Shown here piece by piece: positions 20,668 through 40,722 of a stretch of 46,128 nt of DNA. Source of the DNA: an uncultured Eubacteriales bacterium (GTDB taxonomy: Bacteria; Bacillota; Clostridia; Peptostreptococcales; Anaerovoracaceae); the NCBI GenBank assembly GCA_902801255.1, contig CADCHO010000014.1:1-46128 (forward strand). The letters are read 5' to 3'. The notes beneath the pieces are model-generated. The model ran no database searches, was not told the origin of the DNA, and was given only the letters and a program-made list of their open reading frames with translations. A program made the position numbers and the translations under genes. Numbering within the stretch: the stretch's first letter is position 1; each line of letters opens with the position of its first letter.

Positions 20668-21614
20668 TTCACGGAACCTCCGGAGTTATTTTTACCTGTA
20701 TATGCATCGCGCACCACGAATTGAGGGTCGTTCGTCTGGTTCTGGAACATCCTGCCAAGGTATTCTCCTATAAGGCCCAGGAACAGCATGATGAGTCCAC
20801 TGAAGAAACAGATGCTGACCATTACGGAATACCAGCCTACAGCGCTCGTTGGAGCGAAAATCTTTTTGAGTACAATTGCAGCAGCGCCGAGTATTCCGAG
20901 GATAGCGAAAAACACGCCGGTCCGTGTGGCGATGCGCAGAGGCACAATAGAGTAGCCCATGATATTGGACCACAGGCTTATCAGCTTGCTGAAGGTGTAA
21001 CCTGAATGGCCGTATTCTCTCTCGAAGTGCTCCACAGGCACGCTTGCGATGTTGCGGGTGGTTCTGAGGAAGAGACCCTGCAGGTGAGTATAGTGGCTCT
21101 TGTACTGCACGACATAGTCCCTGACAAAACGCTTGATGATCCAGAAACTCGAGGTTTTCAGATCTTTAGGCTTGCCTATAAGGATGCGTACTGAAGTGTA
21201 GTTGACCCAGCTCCCGAAATTGCGAAACGCATTGTGATGCTTCTGCGGGTAATATCCATAGACGATATCATATCCCTGGTCGAATGCCTCAAAAAGCTTA
21301 GGCAACTGGGAAGGATGCGTCTGCATGTCGTCATCCATTGCGATAAGGACGTCTCCCTCCGCATAGTTGAGACCTGCCATCACGGCGTTGTGCTGGCCTG
21401 AATTGCGTGCAAGCTCTATGACTTTTACAAAGTCGTAATCATCGGCAAGAGCCCTGAGTGCGCATATCGTTTCGCCTTCATCCGGCGAGTAGTCATCGAC
21501 CAATACAAACTCGAAAGGTGTACGGCCAAGCTCTTCAAGTTTGGCAGCCGTAAGCTCTACCACCTCGCGGATCGTATGCGATGATTTATAACAAGGTATA
21601 ATTACTGAATACAT
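20664..21614 (-). CDS. family 2 glycosyltransferase acting on polyprenyl phosphate (ArnC/CsbB/DPM1-like)
   Basis: A 316-residue protein. The N-terminal GT-A domain begins MYSVIIPCYKSSHTIREVV, with FVLVDDYSPD (about 36-45) and the metal-binding IAMDDDMQTHPSQLPKL (about 91-107). Two hydrophobic helices lie at about 225-250 and 258-285, followed by a short charged tail. This topology is typical of enzymes that load a sugar onto undecaprenyl phosphate for later use outside the cell, e.g. ArnC and CsbB/GtrB. It heads a five-gene leftward operon. The promoter TTGATA-17-TAAAAT ends 6 bases before the ATG, so the mRNA should start on or near the A of the start codon; no Shine-Dalgarno is present. The sugar is unknown. 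A YfhO-type acceptor transferase is encoded at 30376. Confidence 0.88.
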   Translation of the reverse strand: MYSVIIPCYKSSHTIREVVELTAAKLEELGRTPFEFVLVDDYSPDEGETICALRALADDYDFVKVIELARNSGQHNAVMAGLNYAEGDVLIAMDDDMQTHPSQLPKLFEAFDQGYDIVYGYYPQKHHNAFRNFGSWVNYTSVRILIGKPKDLKTSSFWIIKRFVRDYVVQYKSHYTHLQGLFLRTTRNIASVPVEHFEREYGHSGYTFSKLISLWSNIMGYSIVPLRIATRTGVFFAILGILGAAAIVLKKIFAPTSAVGWYSVMVSICFFSGLIMLFLGLIGEYLGRMFQNQTNDPQFVVRDAYTGKNNSGGSVK

Positions 21615-23587: not shown

Positions 23588-24700
23588 TTGGCAAGAAGAA
23601 AAGGCAAAAAATTATTCACAAAAAACGCGCTGAAGGCGCTGTTATTTTTGTGCATTATTGCAGCCATAACGCTGTTTTTTAACCATGTGTTGGGGTTCGC
23701 AGATGCTGAGCACACTGAGACCATAATGAATGAATTTTACGAGCAGGAGGAAAACTCCGTCGATGTCATTTACTTCGGTTCAAGCGCAACTCAGAGAGCT
23801 TTTGTACAGCCGGTAGCTTTCCATAATGATGGCATAGCCGGATATTCGCTGGCATGTGGAAGCCAGCCGTTCGTGCTCACCAAATATATCATGGAAGAGG
23901 CTCTCAAAACCCAGAAGCCTAAGCTGTTCATCGTAGAGGTCAGGGGAGCGTGCAAGCCGCCTGAAGAGTTATGGGATGTAGCTGTCCGCAGACTTCTCGA
24001 CAACATGAAGCTTTCTTCTACCAAAATAGATGCCGTGCGTGATGTGGTCGAGTATGCAGAGGGTACTGATACGGGCATTGACGAAACCGGTCTCTCATAC
24101 ATCTTTCCGCTTCTGAAGTATCACGGAAGATGGAATCCGTCAAAACAGCCGAAGTATTTCACCAATATTGATTACTACAAAGGCTATACGATGGACTGGG
24201 GCGTATGCTTTAAGTGTACCGAGATCCACCCATTGGTATATACGGAAGACAACATCATGCCTATCCATGAAAAAACCGAGAAAGCTCTCATAGAGCTGCT
24301 CGATTACTGCGATACTATCGACACAAAGGTTCTCTTCGTCGTATCTCCTTATGAGGCGAGCGAGAAGGGAATGGGCAAGATCAACTATGCGAAAAACATA
24401 ATTGAATCCAGAGGATACGAAGTGCTCAATTTCCTGCCGGCAGAACAGCGCGAGATGCTCGGGCTCAACGATAAGGACAGCTATTACAACAGAGAGCATC
24501 TCAACTACAATGGATCTCTCATGTATACAGACTACCTGTCAAAATATATTAAAGAAAACTATGGTGTCCCTGACAGAAGGGGAGACAGTAAATATGACAG
24601 CTGGGAAGAGCAGTATGACAGACTTGTTGAAAACCTCGATACCAGATATTTCGTTAATTACATCGATATGATGGAGATAGTTAATCAGGTCAGAAGATAA
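23588..24700 (+). CDS. membrane-anchored SGNH-like acyltransferase (DltD counterpart)
   Basis: A 370-residue protein. The start is TTG at 23588, 6 bases after a perfect AGGAGG (23576-23581). An ATG in frame at 23522 overlaps the promoter and is unlikely. Residues 14-35 form one N-terminal helix after a basic start, so the rest is outside. YFGSSATQRAF (about 62-72) carries the Ser of an SGNH-type block I, and NREHLNYNGS (301-310) carries the C-terminal catalytic-type His304. DltD has the same general plan and moves D-alanine from DltB/DltX to teichoic acid, but this protein is not obviously a canonical DltD. It overlaps the MBOAT gene by one base (TAATG), and dltA and dltC follow, so it should be the final D-alanyl transferase (inference). 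Confidence 0.8.
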   Translation: MARRKGKKLFTKNALKALLFLCIIAAITLFFNHVLGFADAEHTETIMNEFYEQEENSVDVIYFGSSATQRAFVQPVAFHNDGIAGYSLACGSQPFVLTKYIMEEALKTQKPKLFIVEVRGACKPPEELWDVAVRRLLDNMKLSSTKIDAVRDVVEYAEGTDTGIDETGLSYIFPLLKYHGRWNPSKQPKYFTNIDYYKGYTMDWGVCFKCTEIHPLVYTEDNIMPIHEKTEKALIELLDYCDTIDTKVLFVVSPYEASEKGMGKINYAKNIIESRGYEVLNFLPAEQREMLGLNDKDSYYNREHLNYNGSLMYTDYLSKYIKENYGVPDRRGDSKYDSWEEQYDRLVENLDTRYFVNYIDMMEIVNQVRR

Positions 24701-26346
24701 TGGCATTTACATCACTTGCATTTTTAATATTCGTTACGGCGGTGGTGATCGTCTACTACCTGACACCGGACCGGCACAAATGGATAGTGCTGCTGCTTGC
24801 CAGCTATGGATACTACCTGCAGGCCAGCGCCAAGTCCTTTGCGTTCATTCTTGTGACTACGGTCGTAACTTTTTATGGTGCGAAGTATATCGACAGGGAA
24901 GATAAGGCGCAGAAAGCGTATGCCAAGGCGCATAAGGCGGAGCTTTCCCGTGATGAGAGAAAGGCTCTCAAGGAAGCTGCCAACAAGAAAAAGAAGCGCA
25001 TCCTTACCCTTGTACTCGTAATAGACTTCGGCATACTTATTGTGCTTAAGTACTTCAGATATTACCTTGAGGTGCTCGGAATAGGCCTATTCAAAGGCGA
25101 CATACTCATCCCGCTCGGTATCTCATTCTATACATTCCAGACGACAGCCTATCTGATCGATGTATACAGGAGCAAATACGATGCTGACACGGATCTTGCG
25201 AAGTTTGCGCTGTTCGTATCATTCTTCCCGCAGATAATCCAGGGACCTATCGCCAGGCATGACCAGCTCGCAAAACAGCTTTATGAAGGACATCCGTTCA
25301 GATATGCCAACCTGGCTCACGGATCACAGCTCATGCTTTGGGGCTTCTTCAAGAAGCTGGTCATCGCTGACAGAATCGGACTTCTGGTAGGCGAGGTGTT
25401 CACAGACTGGGATCAGTACACCGGATGGCCGGTCATTCTTGCGGCTCTCTGTTACTCGATACAGCTTTATATGGACTTCAGCGGAGGTGTGGATATCGCC
25501 CGCGGAGTTGCCCAGCTGATGGGCATCGACATGACAAGAAACTTCAGAAGGCCTTACTTCGGTGACAGCCTCGAAGAGTTCTGGCATCGCTGGCATATCT
25601 CGCTGAGCTTCTGGACGCGCGATTATATCTTCTTCACCGTAGCGTTATCTAAGCCGATCGGAAATCTGGGCAAGAAGGCCCGCAAGATATTCGGAGACCG
25701 TATCGGAAAGATGGTTCCGGTATTCATCGGAAATTATTTGGTATTCCTGTGCATCGGTATGTGGCAGGGCGGTGAGCTCCAGAATGTTTGCTATGGTCTT
25801 TACAATGCGACTGTAATCTGCCTTGCGGATATTCTTGAACCGTATTTTGTGAAGTGGCTCAAGGTCCTGCATATAAACCCGAGCAACAAGGCCTGGATGG
25901 CATTCAAGATGATAAGAACTTACTGCATCGTTTCCTTTGGACGAATTTTCTCGAACGGAAAATCGTTCAAGGCTTCGATACATATGATAAAGTCACTGTT
26001 CATCCCGTATACAGGCGGATTCATGAATGCTTACAAGGAATTTGCGCTCACAAAGTACGATTATCTCGTGCTTGCTGTTGCGATCTTCGTAGTGTTCCTG
26101 GTAAGCGTAAAGCAGGAGAAGCTATATAACGCCAAGCAGGCTGCGTCCGGCGGAGGCGGAGGCATCATCGAGATGGCCGGCGACGAAGAAGGCGCCGGAA
26201 CTGATGCCGAGATGAGAGAATATCTGGACAAAAAGAGCCTTGCCGTCAGGTGGGGACTTTACATACTTCTGTTCACGGCCGTGCTTCTGTTCGGTATCTA
26301 CGGACCGAGCTATGACCCTGCGGTCTTCATTTACAGAGAGTTCTAA
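24700..26346 (+). CDS. dltB: MBOAT O-acyltransferase (DltB/AlgI-like) with fused C-terminal acyl-shuttle motif
   Basis: A 548-residue multi-pass protein. Core MBOAT motifs are IPLGISFYTFQTTAYLIDVY (about 146-165), FFPQIIQGPIARHDQL (about 184-199), YMDFSGGVDIARG and the catalytic-His segment EEFWHRWHISLSFWTRDYIF (about 290-309). Residues about 488-515 form a Gly-rich then acidic linker, followed by a last helix (about 522-538) and the C-terminal hexapeptide FIYREF (543-548). F-x-Y-x-x-F at an extracytoplasmic C-terminus is the acyl-shuttle motif that canonical Dlt systems carry on the separate microprotein DltX; fused versions are known in other MBOAT systems. It should take D-alanine from DltC on the inside and pass it through Tyr545 to the SGNH partner. 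No separate dltX is visible. Confidence 0.85.
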   Translation: MAFTSLAFLIFVTAVVIVYYLTPDRHKWIVLLLASYGYYLQASAKSFAFILVTTVVTFYGAKYIDREDKAQKAYAKAHKAELSRDERKALKEAANKKKKRILTLVLVIDFGILIVLKYFRYYLEVLGIGLFKGDILIPLGISFYTFQTTAYLIDVYRSKYDADTDLAKFALFVSFFPQIIQGPIARHDQLAKQLYEGHPFRYANLAHGSQLMLWGFFKKLVIADRIGLLVGEVFTDWDQYTGWPVILAALCYSIQLYMDFSGGVDIARGVAQLMGIDMTRNFRRPYFGDSLEEFWHRWHISLSFWTRDYIFFTVALSKPIGNLGKKARKIFGDRIGKMVPVFIGNYLVFLCIGMWQGGELQNVCYGLYNATVICLADILEPYFVKWLKVLHINPSNKAWMAFKMIRTYCIVSFGRIFSNGKSFKASIHMIKSLFIPYTGGFMNAYKEFALTKYDYLVLAVAIFVVFLVSVKQEKLYNAKQAASGGGGGIIEMAGDEEGAGTDAEMREYLDKKSLAVRWGLYILLFTAVLLFGIYGPSYDPAVFIYREF

Positions 26347-26363: not shown

Positions 26364-27881
26364 ATGATAAGAAACGCACTTGAATATCTTGAGATAAGCG
26401 CGAAAAAATATCCTGACAAGATCGCTCTTGAGGATGAGCATGAGAAGCTGACTTACACTGAGTATATTACCAAGGCGAAGACAATCGGCACATACCTGCT
26501 CAAAAGGGGACTTGATAAATACAGCAACAAACCGGTCGCAGTCATAATTGACCGCAATATCCGTTCGATAGTCGCTTTCATGGGAGTGCTGTACACCGGT
26601 AACTTCTATGTACCTATTGACTATACTCTTCCGGCTGAAAGGATACAGCTGATATACGACACGCTCGATCCTATCGCAGTTATAGATGCGCGCACGGATA
26701 CCGGCAAAGCGGTAGAAGGAGCAATAGACTTCACGGAGGCTTCATCCGGAGCAGATATAGATGAAGAGCTTCTCAAAAAAGTGAGAAGTGAAGCTATAGA
26801 CACTGACCCGATCTACGGTATCTTTACATCCGGATCTACCGGTGTTCCTAAGGGCGTAGTTATATGCCACCGCGGAGTAATCGACATGGTAGAGGCGTTC
26901 GGAGAGACCTTCGGTTTTGACGATGGAATGGTGCATGCTAACCAGGCTCCGTTCGACTTTGACGTTTCAGTCAAAGACATCTATAACGCCATGAAGAACG
27001 GCGGATCCATAGTCGTTGTGCCGAAGAGACTGTTCCTGATGCCGAAGCTGCTGCTGGAGTTCCTTGTTAAATACAAGGCAAACACCATCATCTGGGCTGT
27101 TTCAGCACTCAGGATAGTATCGGATTTCAAGGCATTCGGCGCGGTCGAAGAAAAACCGGATATGAGGTACATCATGTTCTCGGGAGAGGTGATGCCTATA
27201 AAGGCACTCAACTACTGGATGGATAACCTGCCTGATCCGATGTATGTCAATCTCTACGGACCGACAGAGATCACCTGCAACTGCACTTACTGCATAATAG
27301 AAGGCAAGCAGAACGAACTCAAAGCACTGCCGATAGGTAAAGCCTTCGTTAACACAAAGGTGGTGCTGCTCGACGAGAAGAGAGAAAAGGCTGTTACGAA
27401 GCCTGGAGATGTGGGTGAGGTCTGTGTAGGCGGAGCCGGACTTGCACTCGGCTACTGGAACAATCCGGAGAAGACAAAGGAGGCTTTCTTCCAGAATCCG
27501 GACATCACAGAGCATCCGAGTCTGCTGTACGGTACCGGCGACATGGCTTACTATAACGAAGACGGCAATCTGGTATTCGCTGCGAGAAGAGACTTCCAGA
27601 TCAAGCACATGGGCCACAGAATTGAGCTCGGCGAGATCGAGGTGGCTCTCAACGCGATACCATTCATAGATACATCGTGCTGCCTCTACGATGAGGAGAG
27701 AAGCAAGATCGTATGCTTCTACCAGTCGGAGAGCGACGATACCAAAGCGATAATCAAATTCCTGAGCGATAAGCTGCCTAAATACATGTGGCCTAACATA
27801 TTCAAGAGATATGACAGGCTGCCGATGAACAAGAACAGCAAGATCGACAGGGTGAAATTAAAAGAAGAAATCAGAAAATAG
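26364..27881 (+). CDS. dltA: D-alanine--D-alanyl carrier protein ligase
   Basis: A 505-residue adenylate-forming enzyme of the usual DltA length. The ATP loop is FTSGSTGVPKGVV (about 153-165), A5 is NLYGPTEITCNCTY (about 295-308), A7 is YGTGDMAYYNEDG (about 390-402) and A8 is RRDFQIKHMGHRIELGEIE (about 409-427). The C-terminal Lys of A10 is in NKNSKIDR. DltA activates D-alanine with ATP and loads it onto the phosphopantetheine arm of DltC in the cytoplasm. AAAGGAGGT lies about 10 bases before the ATG. It sits 17 bases after the MBOAT gene and 20 bases before dltC. Assignment as DltA rather than another amino-acid ligase rests on both sequence and dltC adjacency. Confidence 0.93.
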   Translation: MIRNALEYLEISAKKYPDKIALEDEHEKLTYTEYITKAKTIGTYLLKRGLDKYSNKPVAVIIDRNIRSIVAFMGVLYTGNFYVPIDYTLPAERIQLIYDTLDPIAVIDARTDTGKAVEGAIDFTEASSGADIDEELLKKVRSEAIDTDPIYGIFTSGSTGVPKGVVICHRGVIDMVEAFGETFGFDDGMVHANQAPFDFDVSVKDIYNAMKNGGSIVVVPKRLFLMPKLLLEFLVKYKANTIIWAVSALRIVSDFKAFGAVEEKPDMRYIMFSGEVMPIKALNYWMDNLPDPMYVNLYGPTEITCNCTYCIIEGKQNELKALPIGKAFVNTKVVLLDEKREKAVTKPGDVGEVCVGGAGLALGYWNNPEKTKEAFFQNPDITEHPSLLYGTGDMAYYNEDGNLVFAARRDFQIKHMGHRIELGEIEVALNAIPFIDTSCCLYDEERSKIVCFYQSESDDTKAIIKFLSDKLPKYMWPNIFKRYDRLPMNKNSKIDRVKLKEEIRK

Positions 27882-27901: not shown

Positions 27902-28129
27902 ATGGAAGAACTGCTTAGGATCATGAGTGAGGTAAGACCTGACATCGACTTCGAGACAGAGGATAAACTGATCGATAACGAGATGCTGGATTCCCTCGAT
28001 ATCGTCGCTATCGTAACTGACGTAAACGACGAATTTGATATTGAAATCAATGTAAATGACCTGCTTCCGGAGAACTTCAACTCTGCAAAGGCACTCTATG
28101 AGCTTATCCAGAAGCTGCAGTACGAATAA
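27902..28129 (+). CDS. dltC: D-alanyl carrier protein
   Basis: A 75-residue acidic acyl-carrier-like protein. Ser31 in [10 protein letters not shown] is the phosphopantetheine attachment site, in the usual DSLD context, followed by [17 protein letters not shown], typical of DltC helices II and III. It carries D-alanine as a thioester from DltA to the MBOAT protein at the membrane. AGGAGG lies 7 bases before the ATG. It directly follows dltA, and the stop is 4 bases before rfbB, so sugar biosynthesis is transcribed with D-alanylation. Confidence 0.93.
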
Positions 28130-28133
28130 TCAA

Positions 28134-29153
28134 ATGAAAATCTTAGTAACCGGAGCTGCGGGGTTTATCGGCAGCAATTTCGTATTTTATATGCTCAAAG
28201 CGCATCCGGACTACGATATCGTAGGACTAGACGCGCTCACATATGCCGGCAATCTCGAGACACTGGCACCGGCCATCGATGAGCCTCACTTCAAATTTGT
28301 GAAGGCCGACATCACTGATGCAGCTGCCATCGACAAGCTCTTTGCTGAAGAGAAGTTTGATGTAGTAGTCAATTTCGCTGCTGAGTCGCATGTAGACAGA
28401 TCGATCGAGGATCCGGGAGTTTTCCTTCGCACAAATATCCTCGGAACGCAGGTGCTTATGGACGCTTCCATAAAGTATGGAGTAAAGAGATTCCATCAGG
28501 TCGGCACAGACGAAGTATACGGCGATCTGCCGCTCGACAGACCTGATCTGTTCTTCGTAGAGACTATGCCGCTGACCGCTTCAAGCCCATATTCGGCATC
28601 GAAAGCATCCGCAGACCTGCTCGTCATGGCATATCACCGCACATACGGACTGCCGGTCACCATCAGCAGGTGCAGCAACAACTACGGACCTTATCAGTTC
28701 CCTGAGAAGCTTATCCCGCTGATGATCGCCAACGCAAGAGCAGATAAAGCGCTGCCCGTATACGGCGAAGGTCTGAACGTAAGAGACTGGCTCTATGTAG
28801 AGGATCACTGCAGGGCTATAGACCTCATTATCGAAAACGGCAGAGTCGGTGAAGTGTACAACATCGGCGGCCATAACGAGAAGGCCAATATCGAAGTAGT
28901 AAAGATCATACTTGAACAGCTCGGAAAGCCTGAGAGCCTGATCACATATGTTACGGACAGAAAGGGACACGATCAGCGCTATGCTATAGACCCTACAAAG
29001 ATCCACGAGGAGCTTGGCTGGCTGCCTGAGACAAAGTTCGAGGACGGTATTAAAAAGACTATCCAGTGGTATCTCGACAATGAGGACTGGTGGAAAAACA
29101 TCGTAAACGGCGAATACCAGAAGTACTACGAAAAAATGTACGGAAACCGCTGA
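28134..29153 (+). CDS. rfbB: dTDP-glucose 4,6-dehydratase
   Basis: A 339-residue short-chain dehydrogenase of the RmlB/RfbB family. The NAD-binding GAAGFIGSN lies at 7-15. Catalytic residues are Thr125-Asp126-Glu127 in GTDEVYGDL and Tyr153/Lys157 in [26 protein letters not shown] is a family signature. It converts dTDP-glucose to dTDP-4-keto-6-deoxyglucose. I start at 28134, because residues encoded upstream in this frame merely overlap dltC. No clear Shine-Dalgarno precedes the ATG, so re-initiation from dltC (4 bases away) is likely. The product feeds the aminotransferase encoded next. RfbA, C and D are not in the window, so rhamnose is not implied. Confidence 0.93.
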
Positions 29154-29174: not shown

Positions 29175-30305
29175 ATGATCAGTTTCAATGTGCCGCCGTA
29201 TATCGGCAGAGAACAGGATTACATAATGGAAGCCATAAAGGCTCATAAGATCTGCGGAGACGGAGCTTTTACCAAAAAGTGCAACTCCTGGATCGAAGAA
29301 AAGACCGGCGTGAGCAAGGCTCTGCTTACTACGGCTTGTTCTACAGCCCTTGACATGGCAGCCATATTAACAGATGTCGGGCCGGGCGACGAAGTGATAT
29401 TGCCTTCGTTCACATTTGTTTCAACAGCCAATGCTTTTGTGCTGAGAGGAGCAAAACTTGTCTTCGTAGACATCAGACCCGACACCCAGAATATAGATGA
29501 GAAACTCATTGAGGACGCCATCACCGACAGGACGAAAGTAATTGCACCGGTACATTACGCCGGAGTCGGATGCGAGATGGATACCATCATGGATATCGCA
29601 AGGCGTCATGACCTGATCGTTGTTGAGGATGCGGCTCAGGGTGTAATGTCGACATATAAAGGAAATGCCCTGGGCGCGATCGGCGATTACGGATGCTATA
29701 GCTTCCATGAGACAAAGAATTACAGCATGGGCGAAGGCGGGGCTCTTCTGATAAAGGATGAAGCCAATGTAGACAGGGCCGAGATAATCAGGGAGAAGGG
29801 TACCGACAGGAGCAGGTTCCTCAGAGGCCAGATCGATAAGTATACATGGGTGGATATGGGATCATCGTATCTGCCTAGCGAGATGAACGCGGCTTATCTG
29901 TATGCTCAGCTCGAGGCCGCCGATGAGATCAACGATGACAGGAAGGCAAGCTGGAATGCGTATAATGAACTGCTCAGACCTCTTGCTGATGACGGCCGCA
30001 TTGAACTTCCGGTGATACCGGCTGAATGCGAGCACAATGCCCACATGTTTTATATCAAAACATCAGGCATAGAAGAGAGGACAGCACTGTCTGCCTACCT
30101 CAAGGAGAACGGAATACTCGCAGTATTCCACTATGTGCCGCTTCACAGCGCACCTGCAGGACTGAAGTTCGGACGATTCCACGGCGAAGACAGGTACACG
30201 ACCAATACGTTCGAGAGGCTGCTGAGACTGCCTATGTATTACGGCCTCGGACGCGACAATGTCGAGTACATCTGCGGCAAAATAAACGAATTCTATAACA
30301 AATAA
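29175..30305 (+). CDS. rffA: dTDP-4-amino-4,6-dideoxygalactose transaminase
   Basis: A 376-residue PLP enzyme of the DegT/DnrJ/EryC1 aminotransferase family, the same length as E. coli WecE/RffA. It begins ISFNVPPYIGREQDYI, characteristic of this subfamily. The PLP Lys is Lys181 in SFHETKNYSMGEGGA, Asp152 (VVEDAAQG) should contact the PLP nitrogen, and TACSTALDMAA lies near the cofactor phosphate. It converts dTDP-4-keto-6-deoxyglucose to dTDP-Fuc4N, consistent with rfbB immediately upstream. An AAGGGG lies 8-13 bases before the ATG. No acetyltransferase follows, so the sugar may be used with a free amine or be acylated by enzymes encoded elsewhere. A terminator lies downstream at 30320-30360. 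Confidence 0.9.
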   Translation: MISFNVPPYIGREQDYIMEAIKAHKICGDGAFTKKCNSWIEEKTGVSKALLTTACSTALDMAAILTDVGPGDEVILPSFTFVSTANAFVLRGAKLVFVDIRPDTQNIDEKLIEDAITDRTKVIAPVHYAGVGCEMDTIMDIARRHDLIVVEDAAQGVMSTYKGNALGAIGDYGCYSFHETKNYSMGEGGALLIKDEANVDRAEIIREKGTDRSRFLRGQIDKYTWVDMGSSYLPSEMNAAYLYAQLEAADEINDDRKASWNAYNELLRPLADDGRIELPVIPAECEHNAHMFYIKTSGIEERTALSAYLKENGILAVFHYVPLHSAPAGLKFGRFHGEDRYTTNTFERLLRLPMYYGLGRDNVEYICGKINEFYNK

Positions 30306-30375: not shown

Positions 30376-33096
30376 ATGATCAAGCCACTCAAAAATAAAT
30401 GGACAACACTGATTACCTACACCATCCTCTTCGCGATCCTGATGGCGGGGATCTTTGCTTTGTTTATTATGCAGGGCAGGTCCTTCGTCAACAGCTCAGA
30501 TGCGTATGACCAGGGATACTTCTGGACTGCCGAGATGGGCAACAACCTGAGAAGCCTGTTTGGCGGCAAGGGCTATCCGCTCTGGTCATGGGACAGGGGA
30601 ACCGGTCTTGACACAAAGCTGCCGATCGACCCGTTCCTGATGCTGGCATCGTTCTTCCCTGCAGGCAAGATAGAGCTTGGTTATACGATCGCTATAATCC
30701 TGAGGCTGTACTTCGCAGGGTTCGCTTTTATTGTTTTCTGCTGGGAGGCAGGACTCGATAATTTCAAGGCACTGTTCGGCGCGCTCTGCTACGTTTCGAG
30801 CAGCTTCACCATAAACGTAGCACTGGTTCAGGGGCAGTTCATAGATTTCTTCATTCTGTTCCCTCTGCTGGTAATGGCGGTCGACAGGGTCTATAAGGGC
30901 AAGTCCCCGGTGATGTTCATGCTGGTTGTAGGGATCGCAATGGGCATCAACTACTACCTCGCGTATATGGCCGCAATAGGCATAATCATTTATATTGCTC
31001 TTCGCTACTTCCATTATAACGAATTCAGCGCGAAGAGCTACTTCGCTTTTATTGGCAGGTTTATAATCTACGGAATAACGGGCATAATGCTGTCTGCGAT
31101 CTTTGTGTATGTGACGATAGTTACGCTTTCAGGCGCTTCTACCGGCAGCAGGCCGCCGCTTGAATTCCTCTATGACACAGCTCACTACTATAAGTCAATC
31201 ACCAACCTGCTCTCGGAGGGGTATACCTTCGGATATAAATACATAGGCGTGCCTATACTGGCACTGCTCGTTTTACCTGCATTCAAAGGCAGGCCGACAA
31301 TAAAGGCAACACACGTCATAATGGCAGTCATTATGTGCCTTATGGCGCTTACTCCTTTCTGCGGATCCATGTTCAATGCGTTCAGCTATGAGACAAAGAG
31401 ATGGTATTTCATGCTCATATTCTTCCTCGTATGGTGCGCGGCTGAGCACATGGATCTCGATGAGCTGGCAAAAGGAAAGAACGTTATCCTGATGCTGCTC
31501 TGGTGGGCGGTGCTCACATTCACGACACTCGGTTTTGCCTATCTGGATATAACCGGCAACATGTCGCTGAGACATATGGCATTCGTGGGAGGCAATCTGG
31601 CTGCGGGATTCGTGATGATACTCTTTATCTGGATCGCAGGCAGGCTGAATGCATCTCTGCGGCTCAGACAGTCTCTTATTACCCTGGCTGTCATATGTAC
31701 TCTCGTCCTTGTGTGGAACAGCTCTTTCTACGGACATATTGAGCAGAAGTTCTTTAAGTTCGGAGAGATAAACAGGCAGCTTGAAGCTTCAACGCAGCGT
31801 GCGGGAGCGTTGATCGAGGATGACGGATTCTACCGCATCGACCAGGTCGACTGGATCAATTCGCACATAAAGGCGGATCAGCCGGTAAACGAGAATCTGT
31901 GGTGGGGAAATGACACTATCTACATTTATGACTCCAAACTGCCATCAAGACTGTCAGAATTCAACCGCCTGACAGGAAACAACATGGGCTACTCAAAGAG
32001 GGTCTATATGCAGTCCAACGGCAACCGCATGGGGCTGGATTTCCTCTATGGAGTCAAGTACTTCCTCGGAGACGACGAAAAGAACGGAAAAACAGATGCT
32101 GATGCCTTTGCAGGCTATGCTTTCGATTACTTCGACAATCTTGACGGGGTCCATGTGTTTAAGAGCCGCTATGATTCGAGCCTGGGATTCCTATACGATA
32201 AGTTCCTGACAGAGACTGAGTTCGGCAAGCTTTCAAGGCTTGAAAGGGAGCAGGCGCTGATGCAGGCTCTCGTGGTGCCTGATGAAGAGGCCGCCGAAAT
32301 GGACGAGACCAAGCAGATCACTGCTGCAGACATAGAGACGGATATCACTGAACTTGATTACAAGATCCTCTCGGTAGATGGCATAACGAGAGACGGCAAC
32401 ACTTTCATTGCTGAGAATGATGACGCAAGCATTCTTCTCTTTGCGGATCCGGCCGAGAACTCTCAGGTTGTGGTGTCGTTCGACAACCTCAGAAGAGTCA
32501 ATGATGCCGGGGAAAACATCGGCAACTTCAAGCTGAAGTGCAGGAAGGACGGCAAGCAGACAGAAGCCAGCAATCAGAAAAACAACCAGACGATCCCGGG
32601 TATAGTCGACTACGACCTCAACATGGGCTACTATGATAACTTCACGGGAAAGGTGAAGATCATATTCAGCAAGGCCGGCAGATACGAGTTCGATAAAATG
32701 TACATTTCCGCGATGAGCACTGAACTCTTCGACAAGTACGCGAAGGAAAGGTGCAAATCAGTATATGAGGTGACAGACAGGACATCGACCCGGGTTTCGG
32801 GTACTCTCAACGCAAAGAGCGACGGGTGGCTTTTCCTGTCGATACCGGTCAATACAAACTGGAACGTATACATTGACGGCGGACAGGTAGCCGAGATACA
32901 TAATGCAAATATCGCATTCTTTGCTACACCGGTGACAAAGGGTGAGCATACAGTGGAAATGCGCTACGACCATCGCAACCGCAACATCGCGCTGGCTGTG
33001 AGCGGAGCCGGACTGCTGCTCATGATAGCGCTTGGCATCATAGACAAAAAGAGGCTTAGAAAAACAAAGAAGGAGAACAGCCTTGAGACTGCCTAA
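30376..33096 (+). CDS. YfhO-family multi-pass membrane protein (GT-C-like teichoic acid glycosylation)
   Basis: A 906-residue protein. An N-terminal helix is followed by an extracytoplasmic loop with Asp-containing SDAYDQGYFWTAEMG and then about 11 more helices to about residue 460, as in GT-C glycosyltransferases. A long extracytoplasmic domain follows (about 465-870), ending in the YfhO-like beta module (WLFLSIPVNTNWNVYIDG, then KGEHTVEMRYD), a final helix and a basic tail. B. subtilis YfhO and Listeria relatives transfer a sugar from undecaprenyl phosphate to lipoteichoic acid together with a CsbB-type GT2. A GT2 of that kind lies at 20664. The start has no Shine-Dalgarno and follows a terminator by 15 bases, so its own promoter is not obvious. 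It overlaps the next gene by 14 bases. Confidence 0.85.
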   Translation: MIKPLKNKWTTLITYTILFAILMAGIFALFIMQGRSFVNSSDAYDQGYFWTAEMGNNLRSLFGGKGYPLWSWDRGTGLDTKLPIDPFLMLASFFPAGKIELGYTIAIILRLYFAGFAFIVFCWEAGLDNFKALFGALCYVSSSFTINVALVQGQFIDFFILFPLLVMAVDRVYKGKSPVMFMLVVGIAMGINYYLAYMAAIGIIIYIALRYFHYNEFSAKSYFAFIGRFIIYGITGIMLSAIFVYVTIVTLSGASTGSRPPLEFLYDTAHYYKSITNLLSEGYTFGYKYIGVPILALLVLPAFKGRPTIKATHVIMAVIMCLMALTPFCGSMFNAFSYETKRWYFMLIFFLVWCAAEHMDLDELAKGKNVILMLLWWAVLTFTTLGFAYLDITGNMSLRHMAFVGGNLAAGFVMILFIWIAGRLNASLRLRQSLITLAVICTLVLVWNSSFYGHIEQKFFKFGEINRQLEASTQRAGALIEDDGFYRIDQVDWINSHIKADQPVNENLWWGNDTIYIYDSKLPSRLSEFNRLTGNNMGYSKRVYMQSNGNRMGLDFLYGVKYFLGDDEKNGKTDADAFAGYAFDYFDNLDGVHVFKSRYDSSLGFLYDKFLTETEFGKLSRLEREQALMQALVVPDEEAAEMDETKQITAADIETDITELDYKILSVDGITRDGNTFIAENDDASILLFADPAENSQVVVSFDNLRRVNDAGENIGNFKLKCRKDGKQTEASNQKNNQTIPGIVDYDLNMGYYDNFTGKVKIIFSKAGRYEFDKMYISAMSTELFDKYAKERCKSVYEVTDRTSTRVSGTLNAKSDGWLFLSIPVNTNWNVYIDGGQVAEIHNANIAFFATPVTKGEHTVEMRYDHRNRNIALAVSGAGLLLMIALGIIDKKRLRKTKKENSLETA

Positions 33097-36000
33097 CATT
33101 AAAAAGTATATGGACAAAAAGAACAGGATGCGCTTCGTATATGCCAAATACTATACAAGCGAACCTGTTGATGAGAAGACGGTTCTCTTTGAGTCGTTCC
33201 ACGGCAAGGAAATATCCGATTCGCCGCTTGCCATGGCAAGGGCATTGCTTGACATGCCTTGCGCAGGTGAATACAAGCTATGGTTTTCCACGAACGATCT
33301 CGACAGGGACAAAGACGTGCTGGAACGGCTCGGGCTATGCGATTCCATAGGGCTGGTGCATATTCATTCGGAAGAGTATGCGAGGCTGCTTGCCACGGCC
33401 GGCCTGATGGTAAATAACAGCTCGTTTCCGTCATATATAGTGAGAAGGGAAGGCCAGAAATATCTGCAGACCTGGCACGGGACTCCGTGGAAAACACTCG
33501 GACGCAGCATGAAGGGCGAACTGGCATCGATTCACAACTCACAGCATAACTTCATCCAGGCGAGCCATCTGCTGTTCCCGAATGAGTTCACTAAAAAAGC
33601 TATAATGTACGACTACGTGCTTGATGACATATATACCGGAAAGGTGATCACACATGGTTACCCGCGCTGTGCGGTGTTCTGCGATAAAGCGAAAGCGGCA
33701 GAGGTGAAGAGAGCCTGCGGAGATGAAGGATTCAGCACTCTGGCTTATATGCCTACATGGCGCGGACAGGATAACCGCAACATTGAGACCGGGATTTTTG
33801 TCGAGGATACGCTTATTCAGCTCAAAGCCATGGATGAGGCTCTGGCAGACGATCAGAAGCTATATGTGAATCTGCACCCGATAGTCCAGAGCGACATTGA
33901 TCTCGGAGGGTTCAAACATATCCATCCGTTCCCGAAGGATGTGGAGAAGTACGAGTTCATCAACAGCATGGATGCGCTGATCACCGATTATTCGAGCGTA
34001 TTCTTTGACTACTCGATTACGGGCAAGCCGGTCATCCTTTTCACATATGATTACGACAACTACGCTTCGGAAAGAGGCATGTATTTCGGTATAGAAGAGC
34101 TTCCGTTCGCAAGAGTGGACACTCTCGAAGATCTCGCGGAGATGTTCAGGACAAGATCGTATGAAAAGCTAAGTTACGCAGACCATAAAGCGTATCACGA
34201 TAAGTTCATTAAATACGATACCGTCACTGCTGCGGCGGATATTATGAGCTATATGCTGGAATGCAGCGCAGACGGTCCGGACGGAAATTTAGGATCAGCC
34301 TCAAACCTGAAAATTGAAGACTACTCGTTCAACACCGAAAAGCCGCGCAGGATAGTTAACTGCCGCGAGGTGCCGGGTCGGCTCGATATGGATATACTCG
34401 CAAAAGATCTCGGCATGGATGATGTTGCGGTGTTCCATCAGGCAGGTTTCGATATCAAGGCGGGCGACAGGCTTAAGGATCTGTATGACGGAAAGTTCCC
34501 ATATGTCTTCACTACGGAGGCAGTCCCTCAGACGATGGCTGAATCGAGAAGCGGGAGCAAGGCCGTAAAAGCAGCAGTGAAAGAGAGAAATATCAGAAGG
34601 CAGACAGGCGGACTAAAAGTCAGCAAAGTCGTTGAACACAAGCTGTCCAGAACAGAGCTGCTCAGCATAAAGACTAAAGGCAGCATGCTTGTTCTCAACA
34701 TAAGGACTGCAGGTACCGGCACTGTTAAGGGTGTGGTGCTCGAATACAGAAGCGGGATCGAGGCTATAACGCACAGGATGGACTTCAGCGTCACAGGAGA
34801 TACGATCGAAGCATCCATGGACATGTCGGTGCTTAAACACGGCTGCCTGTACTGGGATATATATGTGGAAGCAGGCGAAGGCGATAATGAGTATCAGTAT
34901 CCGGTCATGCTGAGCAAAAGAATGCGTAAGACCCTCAGAAGGGGCTACTATCAGTGCGAGCTTGGTGACTACATCGCATTTCCTCATATCTCGCTTTCGA
35001 GATCCCTGGCGTTCACGCTAAGAGAGAAGAGCCCGTATGACAACCGGGCGACAAGGCTAAAGGAGGTGCTCGTTCCGTCATGGTCGATCATATGGAGCAG
35101 ACTCAACAGGAAGCGCCGCATATGGCTGGTCTTTGAGAAGTTCTGCTCAGCGGCACAGGACAACGGATTCTACTTCTTCAAATGGTGCATGGAGAACCTG
35201 CCTGCCGATAAGAAAAAGGACATATACTATGTCATCGACAAGAATGCAAAGGACTATGAGAATCTGAAGCCGTACGCAGGCCAGGTGCTGCAGTTCATGA
35301 GCTTCAGGCATCTGCTTTATGCGATCAACGCGAAAGTATATGTAGGATCGGATTCCAGGAAACATCTGTATGCATGGAGACCTAAACCTAATCTCATTTC
35401 GATACGCATGGCTGCAAGACCGATACACTTCCTGCAGCACGGAGTGACCGCGCTAAAAAGGACTGACGGACTCTTTGGCGCAAAGGGAAGCAGTCCGATG
35501 ACTCATATAACGACGACATCTGATTATGAGCAGCGCATAATGGATGAATTCTGGGGCTATTCTCCATCGAACGCTCCTGTGCTCGGATTCACACGATGGG
35601 ACGTTCTCGAAGACAAATCCACGCCTGAAGACAAAACCATTCTCGTGATGCCGACATGGAGAGCGTGGCTGGAGGAGAAACCGGATGAAGATTTTATCGC
35701 CAGCGATTACTTCCGCAATTATATGGAGATGCTGGGAGACGAGAGGCTCAACTCCTGCCTTGAAGAAAACAGGGCGAAGCTCATTTTCTTCATACATCCG
35801 AAGTTCAAGGATTATCTGGGAAGGTTCAGTACTCCGTCAGATAATGTTGAACTTGTGCAGTTCGGAAGCAGGCCTCTCAATGAAATAATGATGAAATGCC
35901 GCATGCTCATTACGGACTACTCAAGCGTATGCTGGGACGTTTACTACATGGGCAAGCCGGTGATCTTTTATCAGTTTGACTATGATATGTATATGGAGGT

Positions 36001-36208
36001 CCACGGCAGCTATCTCGACATGGAGCATGAGCTCTTCGGTGAGAGATATACGGAACTTGATGATGTGATCGAAGGCATAAGGGATGCCATTAAGAACGGA
36101 TTCGAGGAGAGTGAGCGCGCACGCGAGATGAGACCGAAGTATTTTAAATACATAGACTCGGACAACAGCAAGCGTACGTATGAATATCTGCGCAAAAAGG
36201 GGTACTGA
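33083..36208 (+). CDS. tandem-domain glycerophosphotransferase (two TagF-like GT-B modules)
   Basis: A 1041-residue protein, more than twice the size of its relatives at 7416 and 9429. Module 1 (about 1-390) has His132 in LQTWHGTPWKTLG, LAYMPTWRGQD, VNLHPIVQ and Asp302 in ITDYSSVFFD. A linker of about 250 residues, predicted beta-rich, follows. Module 2 (about 660-1041) has His786 in FLQHGVTALKR, ILVMPTWRAW, FFIHPKF and Asp945 in ITDYSSVCWD. Both active sites look intact. Bifunctional polymerases with two transferase modules exist among capsule and teichoic acid synthases, so it may add two different units alternately. The start is TTG at 33083, with AAGGAG 7 bases upstream, and overlaps the YfhO gene by 14 bases. 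Confidence 0.87.
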   Translation: MRLPNIKKYMDKKNRMRFVYAKYYTSEPVDEKTVLFESFHGKEISDSPLAMARALLDMPCAGEYKLWFSTNDLDRDKDVLERLGLCDSIGLVHIHSEEYARLLATAGLMVNNSSFPSYIVRREGQKYLQTWHGTPWKTLGRSMKGELASIHNSQHNFIQASHLLFPNEFTKKAIMYDYVLDDIYTGKVITHGYPRCAVFCDKAKAAEVKRACGDEGFSTLAYMPTWRGQDNRNIETGIFVEDTLIQLKAMDEALADDQKLYVNLHPIVQSDIDLGGFKHIHPFPKDVEKYEFINSMDALITDYSSVFFDYSITGKPVILFTYDYDNYASERGMYFGIEELPFARVDTLEDLAEMFRTRSYEKLSYADHKAYHDKFIKYDTVTAAADIMSYMLECSADGPDGNLGSASNLKIEDYSFNTEKPRRIVNCREVPGRLDMDILAKDLGMDDVAVFHQAGFDIKAGDRLKDLYDGKFPYVFTTEAVPQTMAESRSGSKAVKAAVKERNIRRQTGGLKVSKVVEHKLSRTELLSIKTKGSMLVLNIRTAGTGTVKGVVLEYRSGIEAITHRMDFSVTGDTIEASMDMSVLKHGCLYWDIYVEAGEGDNEYQYPVMLSKRMRKTLRRGYYQCELGDYIAFPHISLSRSLAFTLREKSPYDNRATRLKEVLVPSWSIIWSRLNRKRRIWLVFEKFCSAAQDNGFYFFKWCMENLPADKKKDIYYVIDKNAKDYENLKPYAGQVLQFMSFRHLLYAINAKVYVGSDSRKHLYAWRPKPNLISIRMAARPIHFLQHGVTALKRTDGLFGAKGSSPMTHITTTSDYEQRIMDEFWGYSPSNAPVLGFTRWDVLEDKSTPEDKTILVMPTWRAWLEEKPDEDFIASDYFRNYMEMLGDERLNSCLEENRAKLIFFIHPKFKDYLGRFSTPSDNVELVQFGSRPLNEIMMKCRMLITDYSSVCWDVYYMGKPVIFYQFDYDMYMEVHGSYLDMEHELFGERYTELDDVIEGIRDAIKNGFEESERAREMRPKYFKYIDSDNSKRTYEYLRKKGY

Positions 36209-36294: not shown

Positions 36295-36413
36295 GACAAA
36301 AAACAAAGTCTTAAACTTTATATAATTTAAGGATTTGTTTTCGCGGCATTTAGTACAATAGAATTCGTATTATTATGCGAAAATATTGGCTAAGAAGAAT
36401 GGAGAGGTTATTT

Positions 36414-38192: not shown

Positions 38193-39461
38193 ATGCCCGG
38201 AGTAAATTACTTTTTAAGCAGAATAATCGAAGTTATGCTCATAAGCGTCGTGGTCGCTTTTGTGACCACGCCGTTTAGTATTCGTATTGCCAACAGATTT
38301 GGCATTATAGACAAACCGAAAGATGAGAGAAGGGTCCATAAAAAACCGATACCGCGCTTCGGCGGAATGGGCATCTTCATTGGCTCGATGGCAGGGCTTA
38401 TAATACCGGCCGGCCTGAACCACAAGATAGAGGTTGCGATGCTGGGCGGTCTTTTGATGTACGGACTTGGTGTGATCGACGATATATTCGACATAAAGCC
38501 TCTGATAAAATTCGGAGGGCAGGTGCTGATAGCAAGCTTAGTCTATGCTCTGGGGATCCGGATCACATTTATCAGTAACTTCCTGGAACTGCCGGGAGCT
38601 GACAGCCATGCGAATCTTCTGCTAGGAACAGGCGTCGGATATATAATCACGGTGCTTTGGATCGTCGGTATCACGAATGCTGTCAATCTGATGGACGGAC
38701 TCGACGGTCTGGCAGCGGGATCGACTGCAATTATGGCGCTTTCGCTTGCTTACGTTGCATACATCCACGGCATGAGGATCGGATCCATGCCGGTATGCAT
38801 TGCACTGGTAGCAGTAGCAGGAGGCTGTATAGGGTTCCTCCCTTACAACTTCTCTCCGGCCAAGACATTTATGGGAGACGGAGGCGCGCTTTATCTCGGC
38901 TACATGATAGCAGTACTGTCAGTTATTTCACCTCTCAAACAGGCTACATTTGTAGGAGCTATCATACCGATGCTGACGCTCGCTGTGCCTATCTTCGATA
39001 CACTTTTCGCCATGCTGAGGCGTGCGCTGAAACATGAATCGATAATGAGCGCAGACAAAGGCCATCTGCACCATCATCTGATGGCAGCAGGCTTTGGGCA
39101 GAGACGCTCGGTGCTGATAATTTATGGCATAGTCGGTATAATGGGCATCGTCGCGGTGCTTATCAGCCGCGAATTATACAAGGATGCGTTCTTCCTGTTC
39201 TTGATTGCACTGCTGTATTTGTGCATAATAATCGTACCTAAGAGACCGAAAAAAGGCATTAAGAGGATAATTACTCAGGATACCAGCGAACTGGAGAAAG
39301 AATACTTCGCAGAATACCTGAATTATGAGAGAGAGAGAAGAAAGGCATTAAGAGAAGCTGCAAAAGCAGCAGTGGATGCAGAAGAACAGGAAGCCGAAAA
39401 GGCAGAAGAAAAGGCAGAAGAGAATGAAAAAAGAAGCGGAGACGAAACACAGCAGCAATAA
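38193..39461 (+). CDS. tagO: undecaprenyl-phosphate GlcNAc-1-phosphate transferase (TagO/WecA-like)
   Basis: A 422-residue multi-pass enzyme of the polyprenyl-phosphate HexNAc-1-phosphate transferase family (MraY/WecA). Motifs are DKPKDERRVHKKPIPRFGG (about 30-48), the Asp-Asp pair in GVIDDIFDIKP (about 93-103), NLMDGLDGLAAG (about 166-177), FMGDGGALYLGY (about 226-237) and the HIHH-like GHLHHHLMAAGF (about 290-301). It transfers GlcNAc-1-phosphate, or a related sugar, from UDP to undecaprenyl phosphate, the first step of wall teichoic acid and many capsules. GGGAG lies 3 bases before the ATG. The C-terminal about 50 residues are Glu/Ala-rich and helical, beyond the usual family end, and overlap the LCP gene in another frame. 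Confidence 0.9.
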   Translation: MPGVNYFLSRIIEVMLISVVVAFVTTPFSIRIANRFGIIDKPKDERRVHKKPIPRFGGMGIFIGSMAGLIIPAGLNHKIEVAMLGGLLMYGLGVIDDIFDIKPLIKFGGQVLIASLVYALGIRITFISNFLELPGADSHANLLLGTGVGYIITVLWIVGITNAVNLMDGLDGLAAGSTAIMALSLAYVAYIHGMRIGSMPVCIALVAVAGGCIGFLPYNFSPAKTFMGDGGALYLGYMIAVLSVISPLKQATFVGAIIPMLTLAVPIFDTLFAMLRRALKHESIMSADKGHLHHHLMAAGFGQRRSVLIIYGIVGIMGIVAVLISRELYKDAFFLFLIALLYLCIIIVPKRPKKGIKRIITQDTSELEKEYFAEYLNYERERRKALREAAKAAVDAEEQEAEKAEEKAEENEKRSGDETQQQ

Positions 39462-40722
39462 ACGTTCAAAAGGCGGCGGGATATTTCCGAAAAGGATACC
39501 GTACGCGATACTTGTATTGCTGATGGGGGTTGCGACTATCGCTCTTTTTTATGCGATGATCTTGGTCGATGTATTCCCACAGGACCTCACACTGCTGATC
39601 ATAGGCATAGTAATGGGCCTTCTTATCGTAACGTCCATACTTCTGGCACGCCGCAAAAGATGGAAAAGACTGCTGGGCATCATAATCGGTGCGCTGTTCG
39701 TAGTCGTGATAGGATCCGTCACATATTATCTCGGTACTACTTATGCCACTATGACAAAGATCAGCGAGATAGCAAATACATCTAATGCTGAAATGGGTAC
39801 AGGTGCGGATATCGATCCGACAACTGAACCGTTCAATCTGTATATTACCGGTATCGACAGATGGGCAGGGGAGCAGGATCTTGACCGGAGCGATGTAAAC
39901 ATGATCATGACCATCAATCCGGTGACGAAAAAGATACTCCTTACATCGATACCTCGCGATACATATGTGAAGCTGCATACAGCCCAGCAGATGGATAAGC
40001 TTACCCATACCGGCGTTTACGGAGTTGACGAGACGATCAGTACCGTGGAGGACTGGCTCAACATAGATATTGCCTATTATCTGAAGCTGAATTTCTCGTC
40101 GATGAGAGCCATCATCAATGCGATAGGCGGAATCGACGTATATTCGCCGGTCGCTTTCGACAGCGATATATCCGAGTACTCGTACGTGAAGGGGTGGAAC
40201 CATCTGAACGGTAAGCAGGCACTTTACTTCGCGCGTGAGCGTCATGCCTTCGAGGGGCAGGATTCAATGCGTGTAGAGAACCAGCAGAGAGTCGTTAAGG
40301 CGGTTATCAAAAAGCTCACCACTTCAACGACGCTGCTCACCAAGTACGGAGAGATCATGGAGGTAGCCGGAAGCAATCTGAGCACCAACATGAGCTATCA
40401 CGAGATACAGGATCTCATAAAGATGCAGATGACAGATCTGGCTTCATGGGATGTCGAGACACAGAAGGTAGAGGGCGAATACGACATGGACTATGTTGCG
40501 TCGCTTTCGCAGAAAAACAAATACTCGGTATACAGACCTGACGCTGAATCGGTCAGCAAGTGTCTGGACGGGATCTATGCTATTCAGCATCCGACAAGCG
40601 CAGAACTCGAGAAGGCAAGCGAGATCAAAAAGAAGGGATTTATATCCAGCATAATCAGAAAAGCGCAGGAAAGAGTGAAAAACGGTATAGAAGCTTCGGG
40701 TGACGAGGAAGAAGAGGGTTAG
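39424..40722 (+). CDS. LytR-CpsA-Psr (LCP) family glycopolymer ligase
   Basis: About 432 residues. A basic N-terminus is followed by two or three helices (about 22-115), then the LCP domain outside: FNLYITGIDR (about 138), DRSDVNMIMTINP with the conserved Asp (about 152-164), TSIPRDTYVKL with the conserved Arg (about 172-182), the INAIGGIDVYSPVAFD strand and ALYFARERHAFEGQDSMR (about 265-282), typical of the pyrophosphate-binding core. LCP enzymes move undecaprenyl-pyrophosphate-linked glycopolymers onto peptidoglycan. I start at 39424; an ATG at 39376 would add only a basic out-of-frame reading of tagO's Glu-rich tail. It overlaps tagO by 38 bases, so both should be made together. TagO starts the chain and LCP finishes it. 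Confidence 0.9.
   Translation: MKKEAETKHSSNKRSKGGGIFPKRIPYAILVLLMGVATIALFYAMILVDVFPQDLTLLIIGIVMGLLIVTSILLARRKRWKRLLGIIIGALFVVVIGSVTYYLGTTYATMTKISEIANTSNAEMGTGADIDPTTEPFNLYITGIDRWAGEQDLDRSDVNMIMTINPVTKKILLTSIPRDTYVKLHTAQQMDKLTHTGVYGVDETISTVEDWLNIDIAYYLKLNFSSMRAIINAIGGIDVYSPVAFDSDISEYSYVKGWNHLNGKQALYFARERHAFEGQDSMRVENQQRVVKAVIKKLTTSTTLLTKYGEIMEVAGSNLSTNMSYHEIQDLIKMQMTDLASWDVETQKVEGEYDMDYVASLSQKNKYSVYRPDAESVSKCLDGIYAIQHPTSAELEKASEIKKKGFISSIIRKAQERVKNGIEASGDEEEEG

Follow-up and report, generated by a model that had tools for sequence, protein, structure and literature searches.

A candidate carrier-fed MBOAT–SGNH envelope acylation system, Dlt-like in working and most likely without D-alanine as cargo, in an uncultured Anaerovoracaceae bacterium

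The locus and the sample

The window is the whole stretch of 46,128 nucleotides of contig CADCHO010000014.1 (assembly GCA_902801255.1) from an uncultured Eubacteriales bacterium of the family Anaerovoracaceae. On its forward strand lies an operon of four genes that encode an SGNH-type acyltransferase with an N-terminal membrane anchor (23588..24700, +; 370 aa, start TTG, with start and ribosome-binding site checked), an MBOAT with a fused acyl-shuttle tail (24700..26346, +; 548 aa), a stand-alone amino-acid adenylation enzyme (26364..27881, +; 505 aa, pocket code DVKAMSLCNK) and a carrier protein (27902..28129, +; 75 aa, attachment residue Ser31). The operon is tightly packed: the SGNH stop and the MBOAT start overlap by 1 base, and gaps of 17 and 20 bases follow. 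A preliminary description had read these genes as a hybrid D-alanylation machine, with the motif of the DltX shuttle fused to the MBOAT beside true dltA and dltC. We read them as a carrier-fed MBOAT–SGNH system for envelope acylation, Dlt-like in working and most likely with a cargo other than D-alanine (probability about 0.5); its catalytic steps, the class of its cargo and its acceptor are all what we infer.

The comparison rests on loci (L numbers; genomes bear G numbers) from three sources: 60 MBOAT-locus stretches from genomes of the family, 80 loci among the matches listed, and 20 stretches taken from the top matches when a relative's MBOAT was searched at class level. The sample is thus query-driven and mostly made of top-scoring loci, and MBOAT open reading frames (ORFs) of 420 aa or less were left out. 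Its 172 rows include four MBOATs twice (L037/L129, two of L065/L135, L137/L268), giving 168 distinct ones. Neighbors count as near when on the same strand and within 4.5 kb for the adenylation enzyme (profile score at least 250) or within 6.5 kb for the carrier (at least 55) and the decarboxylase (at least 200); by this distance rule L133_14635 and perhaps L266_830, which adjoin the genes of another MBOAT, count as carrier-linked. The window's own genome is 78.5% complete, and those of the two sister species, G238 and G286, are 96% and 86% complete.

The MBOAT and its C-terminal tail

The MBOAT domain (PF03062) is found with 38 bits against a cut-off of 27, and the DltB model TIGR04091 gives 154.7 bits, under its cut-off of 375. 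The AlphaFold model has a mean pLDDT of 90, and a structure search with it leads to DltB (6bug, E 5e-12). At the C-terminal end, a long helix (residues 452–482) is followed by a short one (500–510) and by the last transmembrane helix (26239..26292, +; residues 514–531 of the model, with positive charges on its N-terminal side), in the same order as helices 15–17 of PatA (PMC12148441). The hexapeptide FIYREF (26326..26343, +), with Tyr545 as the presumed acyl acceptor, forms the last six residues after that helix, with the stop codon directly behind it, exactly as first described.

A profile built from separate DltX proteins only (14 of the 19 found at canonical dlt loci in the family) matches the last 60 residues of the window's MBOAT with E 2.3e-4, so that the proposed likeness to DltX holds, and it matches the tails of the sister species as well. 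At E ≤ 0.01 it recognizes 71 of the 172 MBOAT tails in the sample and one of 860 shuffled tails. In 168 of 170 relatives with a recognizable tail, lysines and arginines are more numerous before the last helix than after it; by the positive-inside rule, this asymmetry predicts that the motif and the C-terminus lie outside the membrane, and not in the cytoplasm, the placement that the preliminary description had named as contrary to its proposal. The DltX-like shuttle motif fused to the MBOAT is real, known in kind and not rare.

Recurrence in the family and beyond

An MBOAT that matches the window's at E ≤ 1e-20 is encoded in 239 of 296 genomes of the family, and a plasmid search gave only distant MBOATs (136 records, each below 60% identity). 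The exact FxYxxF ending is present in 144 of the 168 distinct MBOATs; a carrier is near 106 of them, a related adenylation enzyme near 74, and both near 71. By pocket class, the enzymes divide into the window's class (24 distinct MBOATs), DAKV/DARV (21; the DAKV class has 20 rows without DARV), IARS (13) and others (16). The "hybrid machine" thus stands as far as a fused motif beside a carrier and an adenylation enzyme goes; as a label it is too narrow, for Clostridia show this gene arrangement repeatedly, with adenylation enzymes of several pocket classes. As a separate observation, a carrier adjoins a fused-shuttle MBOAT without adenylation enzyme or decarboxylase in reach in 35 of the 172 rows (among them L037, L041, L045 and L049), and L040 has two sugar-transfer-type ATP-grasp genes nearby.

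In the MBOAT tree (FastTree), 87 of the 88 carrier-linked rows belong to a single group of 105 rows (support 1.0); the core of this group, 103 rows, has support 0.0 and includes some rows with no carrier near. With canonical DltB as outgroup, the carrier-linked MBOATs are nested in the fused-tail family. In approximately unbiased (AU) tests, a single clade of canonical DltB and carrier-linked MBOATs is not rejected (p 0.667, the constrained tree scoring better; p 0.114 with L133_14635 counted as carrier-linked), and neither is a single clade of the carrier-linked rows (p 0.82). The AU tests do not separate the topologies, and we make no claim either way about an origin by fusion of DltX with DltB.

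Canonical dlt operons in the family

The 20 canonical dlt loci (L109–L128) encode a DltB of 383–399 aa without the motif; the DltB of L118 reads 453 aa, in an ORF open at the end of a contig of 3 kb. A separate DltX of 50–76 aa is present in 19 of them, its gene standing after dltD at 17 loci and ahead of dltA at two; the motif pattern for small ORFs also caught chance ORFs, and those adjoining dlt genes were taken. The Pfam model of DltX passes its cut-off in five of the 296 genomes, against 56 for DltD, and was for this reason discarded as too weak a test for a separate dltX; the profile of 14 DltX proteins took its place in the searches.

Two members of the window's genus (G082 and G265) have a canonical dlt operon complete with dltX, their DltB scoring 464–469 bits on the DltB model, and encode fused-tail MBOATs elsewhere in the genome (L071, L050). 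In the window's own genome, at its 78.5% completeness, searches gave no DltD (PF04914), no separate DltX and no DltA or DltB over cut-off, which agrees with the lack of a separate dltX and of canonical dltB and dltD supposed at the outset; the same searches in G238 and G286 likewise gave neither DltD nor DltX, and nothing above the cut-offs of DltA and DltB.

The adenylation enzyme and the carrier

The designation of the two downstream genes as true dltA and dltC is not supported. On the adenylation enzyme, the DltA model TIGR01734 gives 292.5 bits against a cut-off of 559.85, and on the carrier, the DltC model PRK05087 gives 25 bits against 68. The carrier has the general carrier fold, and the attachment serine is present in all 111 aligned carriers. 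Against solved structures, the enzyme fits DltA of Bacillus cereus (197 bits) no more closely than GrsA (gramicidin synthetase 1; 214 bits) or the best LgrA domain (about 195 bits); the model of the exosortase-A-associated ligase, TIGR03098, gives 190 bits, under its cut-off. In a tree of adenylation domains (A-domains), the canonical DltA stand together on one side of a branch with support 0.81.

Pocket positions were read through conserved motifs and numbered as in GrsA. Among the canonical DltA of the same family (n = 19; the one remaining row of 20, from L111, is a ligase unrelated to them and was dropped), 16 have the code DLMTLCTV[AC]K and three are off by one or two places; the window's DVKAMSLCNK differs from DLMTLCTVAK at eight of ten positions. 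With both proteins below the curated cut-offs and with a pocket unlike that of canonical DltA, D-alanylation is unsupported, and the D-alanine cargo of the preliminary description gives way to one that, judging from the sequence, is most likely not D-alanine. Asp235 and Lys517 of the enzyme are kept as in A-domains for alpha-amino acids. Lys239 in the window's class, or Arg239 in the IARS class, could hold a second carboxylate.

The SGNH partner

The protein at 23588 has no Pfam match, that to DltD (PF04914) included. Its AlphaFold model (pLDDT 86) retrieves with Foldseek PatB (7tjb, E 2.2e-4) and DltD (6pfx, E 2.8e-4) first, with TM-scores of about 0.3–0.5 and with general SGNH hydrolases close behind. 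The low TM-scores and the closeness of other hydrolases mean that the SGNH fold is supported and a kinship to PatB or to DltD is not. This agrees with the earlier placing of an SGNH-fold protein where canonical DltD would stand, and carrier and adenylation enzyme do adjoin the MBOAT. The predicted nucleophile is Ser66, with His304; the positions of the block-V acid are occupied by Ser298 and Asn301, and in both sisters by cysteine and asparagine. An acid is missing at both positions in five of 109 distinct SGNH proteins, and of the two outside the three sister species, one (L204) may be misaligned.

Sorted by pocket class, all 20 distinct SGNH genes of DAKV/DARV have cysteine as nucleophile; all 20 of the window's class and all 13 of IARS have serine. 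This is the agreement that a common cargo would give; since the SGNH rows are related, it is no independent test of one. Apart from this, the cysteine nucleophile beside DAKV/DARV enzymes (for example in L133, L136, L139, L143 and L263) may mark a thiol-based envelope acyltransferase.

A glutamine in place of the catalytic histidine

The histidine of the RWH motif, His299 (25594..25596, +; equivalent to DltB His289), is kept in 168 of 168 MBOATs, a set that includes 20 canonical DltB. At the place of the catalytic histidine (His336 of DltB, His315 of PatA), the window's MBOAT has Gln356 (codon CAG, 25765..25767, +), within its WHG motif. Histidine is present there in 164 of the 168 distinct MBOATs, and glutamine in the window, in the sisters L033 and L034 (with CAG in all three species) and in a distant member of the Bacillota, L155. 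DltB His336 is called invariant (PMC11035591), and the universally conserved histidine of PatA is needed for auto-acetylation, none being detectable after its change to alanine (PMC12148441). The D-alanyl relay, as first proposed, needs this histidine.

In the three species, none of the four reading frames is interrupted, and the proportion of nonsynonymous differences (pN) is well below that of synonymous ones (pS): 0.11–0.15 against 0.66–0.69 for the MBOAT and 0.006–0.033 against 0.57–0.62 for the carrier, with synonymous sites near saturation; the SGNH gene changes faster than the rest (pN 0.23–0.33). The four genes of the window and of its two sisters thus look to be under purifying selection. 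The members of the Gln356 clade may have another chemistry or may be impaired transferases, and the apparent selection favors the former. L155 (MBOAT at 9001–10578) has an adenylation code of the same class, a carrier and a degenerate tail (YVYESI); no decarboxylase or SGNH gene was found nearby. In the window's pocket class, glutamine occurs in four of seven loci without a decarboxylase and in none of 17 with one; three of these four are one clade and the fourth is L155, with its degenerate tail. A literature search for MBOATs with a histidine-to-glutamine change gave nothing usable.

Decarboxylases of relatives and the nature of the cargo

At many loci of relatives, a pyridoxal phosphate (PLP) enzyme of about 400 residues stands between or beside the genes of the MBOAT set. 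Four of these proteins were scanned, and all have both domains of the ornithine/diaminopimelate/arginine decarboxylases; three, scanned against NCBIfam, stay below the cut-offs of LysA and of TIGR03099 (144–171 bits for the latter). The remaining ones were recognized by a profile from five of them. Counted by distinct locus, the LysA-like decarboxylase accompanies 17 of 24 in the window's class, 13 of 13 in IARS and none of 21 in DAKV/DARV.

The same trio of adenylation enzyme, carrier and decarboxylase loads an amino dicarboxylate in natural-product pathways and decarboxylates it on the carrier, and an acidic cargo is likely for this reason. In the VinN/VinL/VinO system, an amino dicarboxylate is loaded and its carboxylate removed on the carrier (PMC11284099); AfcQ/AfcK/AfcP load and decarboxylate in the same way (PMC12186527), and the like is in part proposed for BolO/BolC/BolN, with BtrK as the precedent (PMC7756342). 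In our reading, the systems of the window's class and related ones would esterify envelope polymers with aminoacyl groups other than D-alanyl, perhaps from acidic amino acids that are sometimes decarboxylated on the carrier. A search of the literature for beta-alanine or aspartyl groups in teichoic acid together with an MBOAT gave no paper. The residue rule of VinN was tried on the window's enzyme and rejected, its code position 331 being asparagine and not arginine.

No decarboxylase adjoins the window's genes. Its own genome, G238 and G286 each encode one LysA-like protein, with 107–109 bits, against 614 bits for the dedicated decarboxylase of G228, a member of the window's genus and the genome of locus L065. 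As no dedicated decarboxylase was found in these three genomes, the cargo of the window's system would keep its carboxylate.

Neighboring genes and the possible acceptor

Downstream of the carrier gene follow genes for a dTDP-glucose 4,6-dehydratase (RmlB; 28134..29153, +, start ATG; TIGR01181 491.7 bits, cut-off 365.1), a dTDP-4-amino-4,6-dideoxy-hexose transaminase of WecE type (29175..30305, +; NF008687 626 bits, cut-off 375), a YfhO family membrane protein (30376..33096, +; PF09586), a protein with a CDP-glycerol:poly(glycerophosphate) glycerophosphotransferase domain of TagF type (33083..36208, +; PF04464 323 bits), a family 4 glycosyltransferase, presumably of TagO/WecA type (38193..39461, +; PF00953), and a member of the LytR-CpsA-Psr family of wall-polymer ligases (39376..40722, +; PF03816). 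The set reads as a cluster of wall-teichoic-acid type with a 4-amino-4,6-dideoxy-hexose, and its polymer would be the natural acceptor. Within the cluster, a protein of 598 aa (36375–38171, +) has no Pfam match at E ≤ 1e-5. Near it, an Acyltransferase-3 family protein (43163–44299, +) could be a second envelope acylation enzyme. At 19468–21614 (−), an ATP-grasp enzyme with an L-amino-acid-ligase C-terminal domain adjoins a family 2 glycosyltransferase; the sister locus L034 holds ORFs with the same N-termini as this region.

The proposed relay and its alternatives

In the relay that we favor, the adenylation enzyme would activate an amino acid that plausibly bears a second carboxylate, and load it on the phosphopantetheine of Ser31 of the carrier. 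The MBOAT would receive the carrier's aminoacyl group in its tunnel on the cytoplasmic side and pass it to Tyr545 of its own tail on the outer side, from where it would go to Ser66 of the SGNH protein, which would esterify the teichoic-acid-type polymer of the same cluster. Where relatives share the window's pocket class, the LysA-like PLP decarboxylase would probably shorten the carrier-bound cargo, in the manner of VinO, BtrK and AfcP.

Several observations weigh against this relay. The catalytic histidine is Gln356 in the window's MBOAT, and its SGNH protein has no acid at either block-V position; the fold matches of the latter are weak (E about 1e-4), with general hydrolases ranking close to PatB and DltD. 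MBOAT residues 537–548 have a pLDDT below 50, so the model gives no picture of the tail docked in the funnel. As to the cargo, Asp235, Val236, Ser301 and Leu322 of the window's enzyme are also found in serine codes, and the acidic-cargo idea draws on Lys239 and on decarboxylases that are present only in relatives. In VinN and AfcQ, an arginine serves at another place than 239 (PMC7756342; PMC12186527), and the window's enzyme does not follow their rule.

There is a more speculative idea, to which we give little credence: the MBOAT step might have been invented anew in the window's lineage. The carboxylate of an acidic cargo that was not decarboxylated might stand in for the missing histidine, and perhaps for the SGNH acid, so that Gln356 would be an adaptation to the cargo in a substrate-assisted MBOAT, part of a system that makes aminoacyl esters of teichoic acids. 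If so, related species would exchange aspartyl- or glutamyl-type cargoes for beta-alanyl- or 4-aminobutyryl-type ones by the gain or loss of a single decarboxylase. A naturally occurring MBOAT with glutamine at this place puts to the test whether members of so large a family can ever dispense with the catalytic histidine.

The relay might instead carry an alpha-amino acid that is neutral but different from D-alanine, such as serine or glycine, with the decarboxylase of relatives making or editing some other precursor; we consider this unlikely. It would suit the conserved Asp235 and Lys517 and the likeness of Ser301 and Leu322 to serine codes. Lys239, on the other side, is unusual for neutral side chains, and 17 of the 24 loci in the window's class have the decarboxylase as a neighbor.

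Two further readings appear quite improbable to us. One is true D-alanylation with a divergent DltA pocket, D-alanine passing from the carrier to Tyr545, the SGNH protein and teichoic acid. The Dlt-like gene set, the DltB-like fold and the teichoic-acid-type neighbors would fit, as would the own genome, in which, at 78.5% completeness, no other dlt operon was found. The pocket speaks against it, off at eight of ten positions and with serine for the cysteine of DltA, as do the DltA, DltB and DltC models, all under their cut-offs, and the two genus members that have a canonical dlt operon besides their fused-tail MBOATs. The other is that catalysis by the MBOAT was lost with the change of histidine to glutamine, in an operon that decays or has taken a regulatory or binding role. 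This would account for Gln356 at a place called invariant, for an SGNH protein without either block-V acid whose gene evolves fastest of the four, and for the degenerate tail of L155, the other case of glutamine. Against it stand four genes that are open in three species with pN far under pS, and a carrier, a Tyr545 and a motif that are intact.

Least probable is an ordinary O-acetyltransferase of AlgI/PatA type that depends on acyl-CoA, the adenylation enzyme and carrier belonging to another pathway: exact-motif MBOATs without a near carrier or adenylation enzyme make up 58 of the 172 rows and PatA uses acetyl-CoA (PMC12148441), but a carrier is near 106 of the 168 MBOATs, nearly all carrier-linked rows fall in one tree group (which also holds carrier-less ones), the pocket class tracks the SGNH nucleophile and the operon is tightly packed.

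If the favored relay is true, these bacteria would decorate envelope polymers with several aminoacyl esters, and a genome sequence could tell the cargo. The window's pocket class and a decarboxylase occur together in L131, from [Clostridium] fimetarium DSM 9179, and in L142, from Anaerosacchariphilus polymeriproducens; both are named isolates, which makes the system open to testing.

Comparison with known systems

We recognized no account of a fused-shuttle MBOAT with carrier and adenylation enzyme in the open-access literature; Schultz et al. 2023 (Nature Microbiology) may mention such loci. Two things are new against the searchable literature: a variant that is fed by a carrier, is not of the D-alanine type and has more than one cargo to choose from, and, inside this variant, a clade whose catalytic residue is substituted.

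With natural-product systems of the VinN/VinL/VinO, AfcQ/AfcK/AfcP and BtrK types, the window shares a stand-alone adenylation enzyme and a carrier, and its relatives share the LysA-like PLP decarboxylase; in contrast to them, the module would feed an envelope MBOAT and not natural-product assembly, no decarboxylase stands beside the window's genes, and the Arg331 rule of VinN does not apply. The exosortase-A-associated ligase and decarboxylase (TIGR03098, TIGR03099) are matched by the window's enzyme and by three decarboxylases of relatives, all under cut-off.

Like PatA/PatB and AlgI-type systems, the window's has an MBOAT with extra C-terminal helices that end in FxYxxF and a separate SGNH partner. 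PatA, however, takes acetyl-CoA, whereas the operon described here encodes a carrier and an adenylation enzyme, and the histidine that is invariant in the fused-shuttle MBOAT–SGNH class is Gln356 in the window. With Dlt it has in common the adenylation enzyme, the carrier, the MBOAT, the FxYxxF acyl-shuttle tail, the SGNH protein and the wall-polymer context; it differs in a shuttle fused to the MBOAT, a pocket that is not that for D-alanine, the lack of a PF04914 DltD and the glutamine for the catalytic histidine. The published split, as given in PMC12148441, sets Dlt, with carrier, separate DltX and D-alanine, against fused-shuttle MBOAT/SGNH pathways that are said to lack a carrier protein and evidently draw on acyl-CoA. 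The loci described here break this split: in Clostridia, a fused shuttle goes together with a carrier and an adenylation enzyme, in at least three recurrent pocket classes and with an optional decarboxylase.

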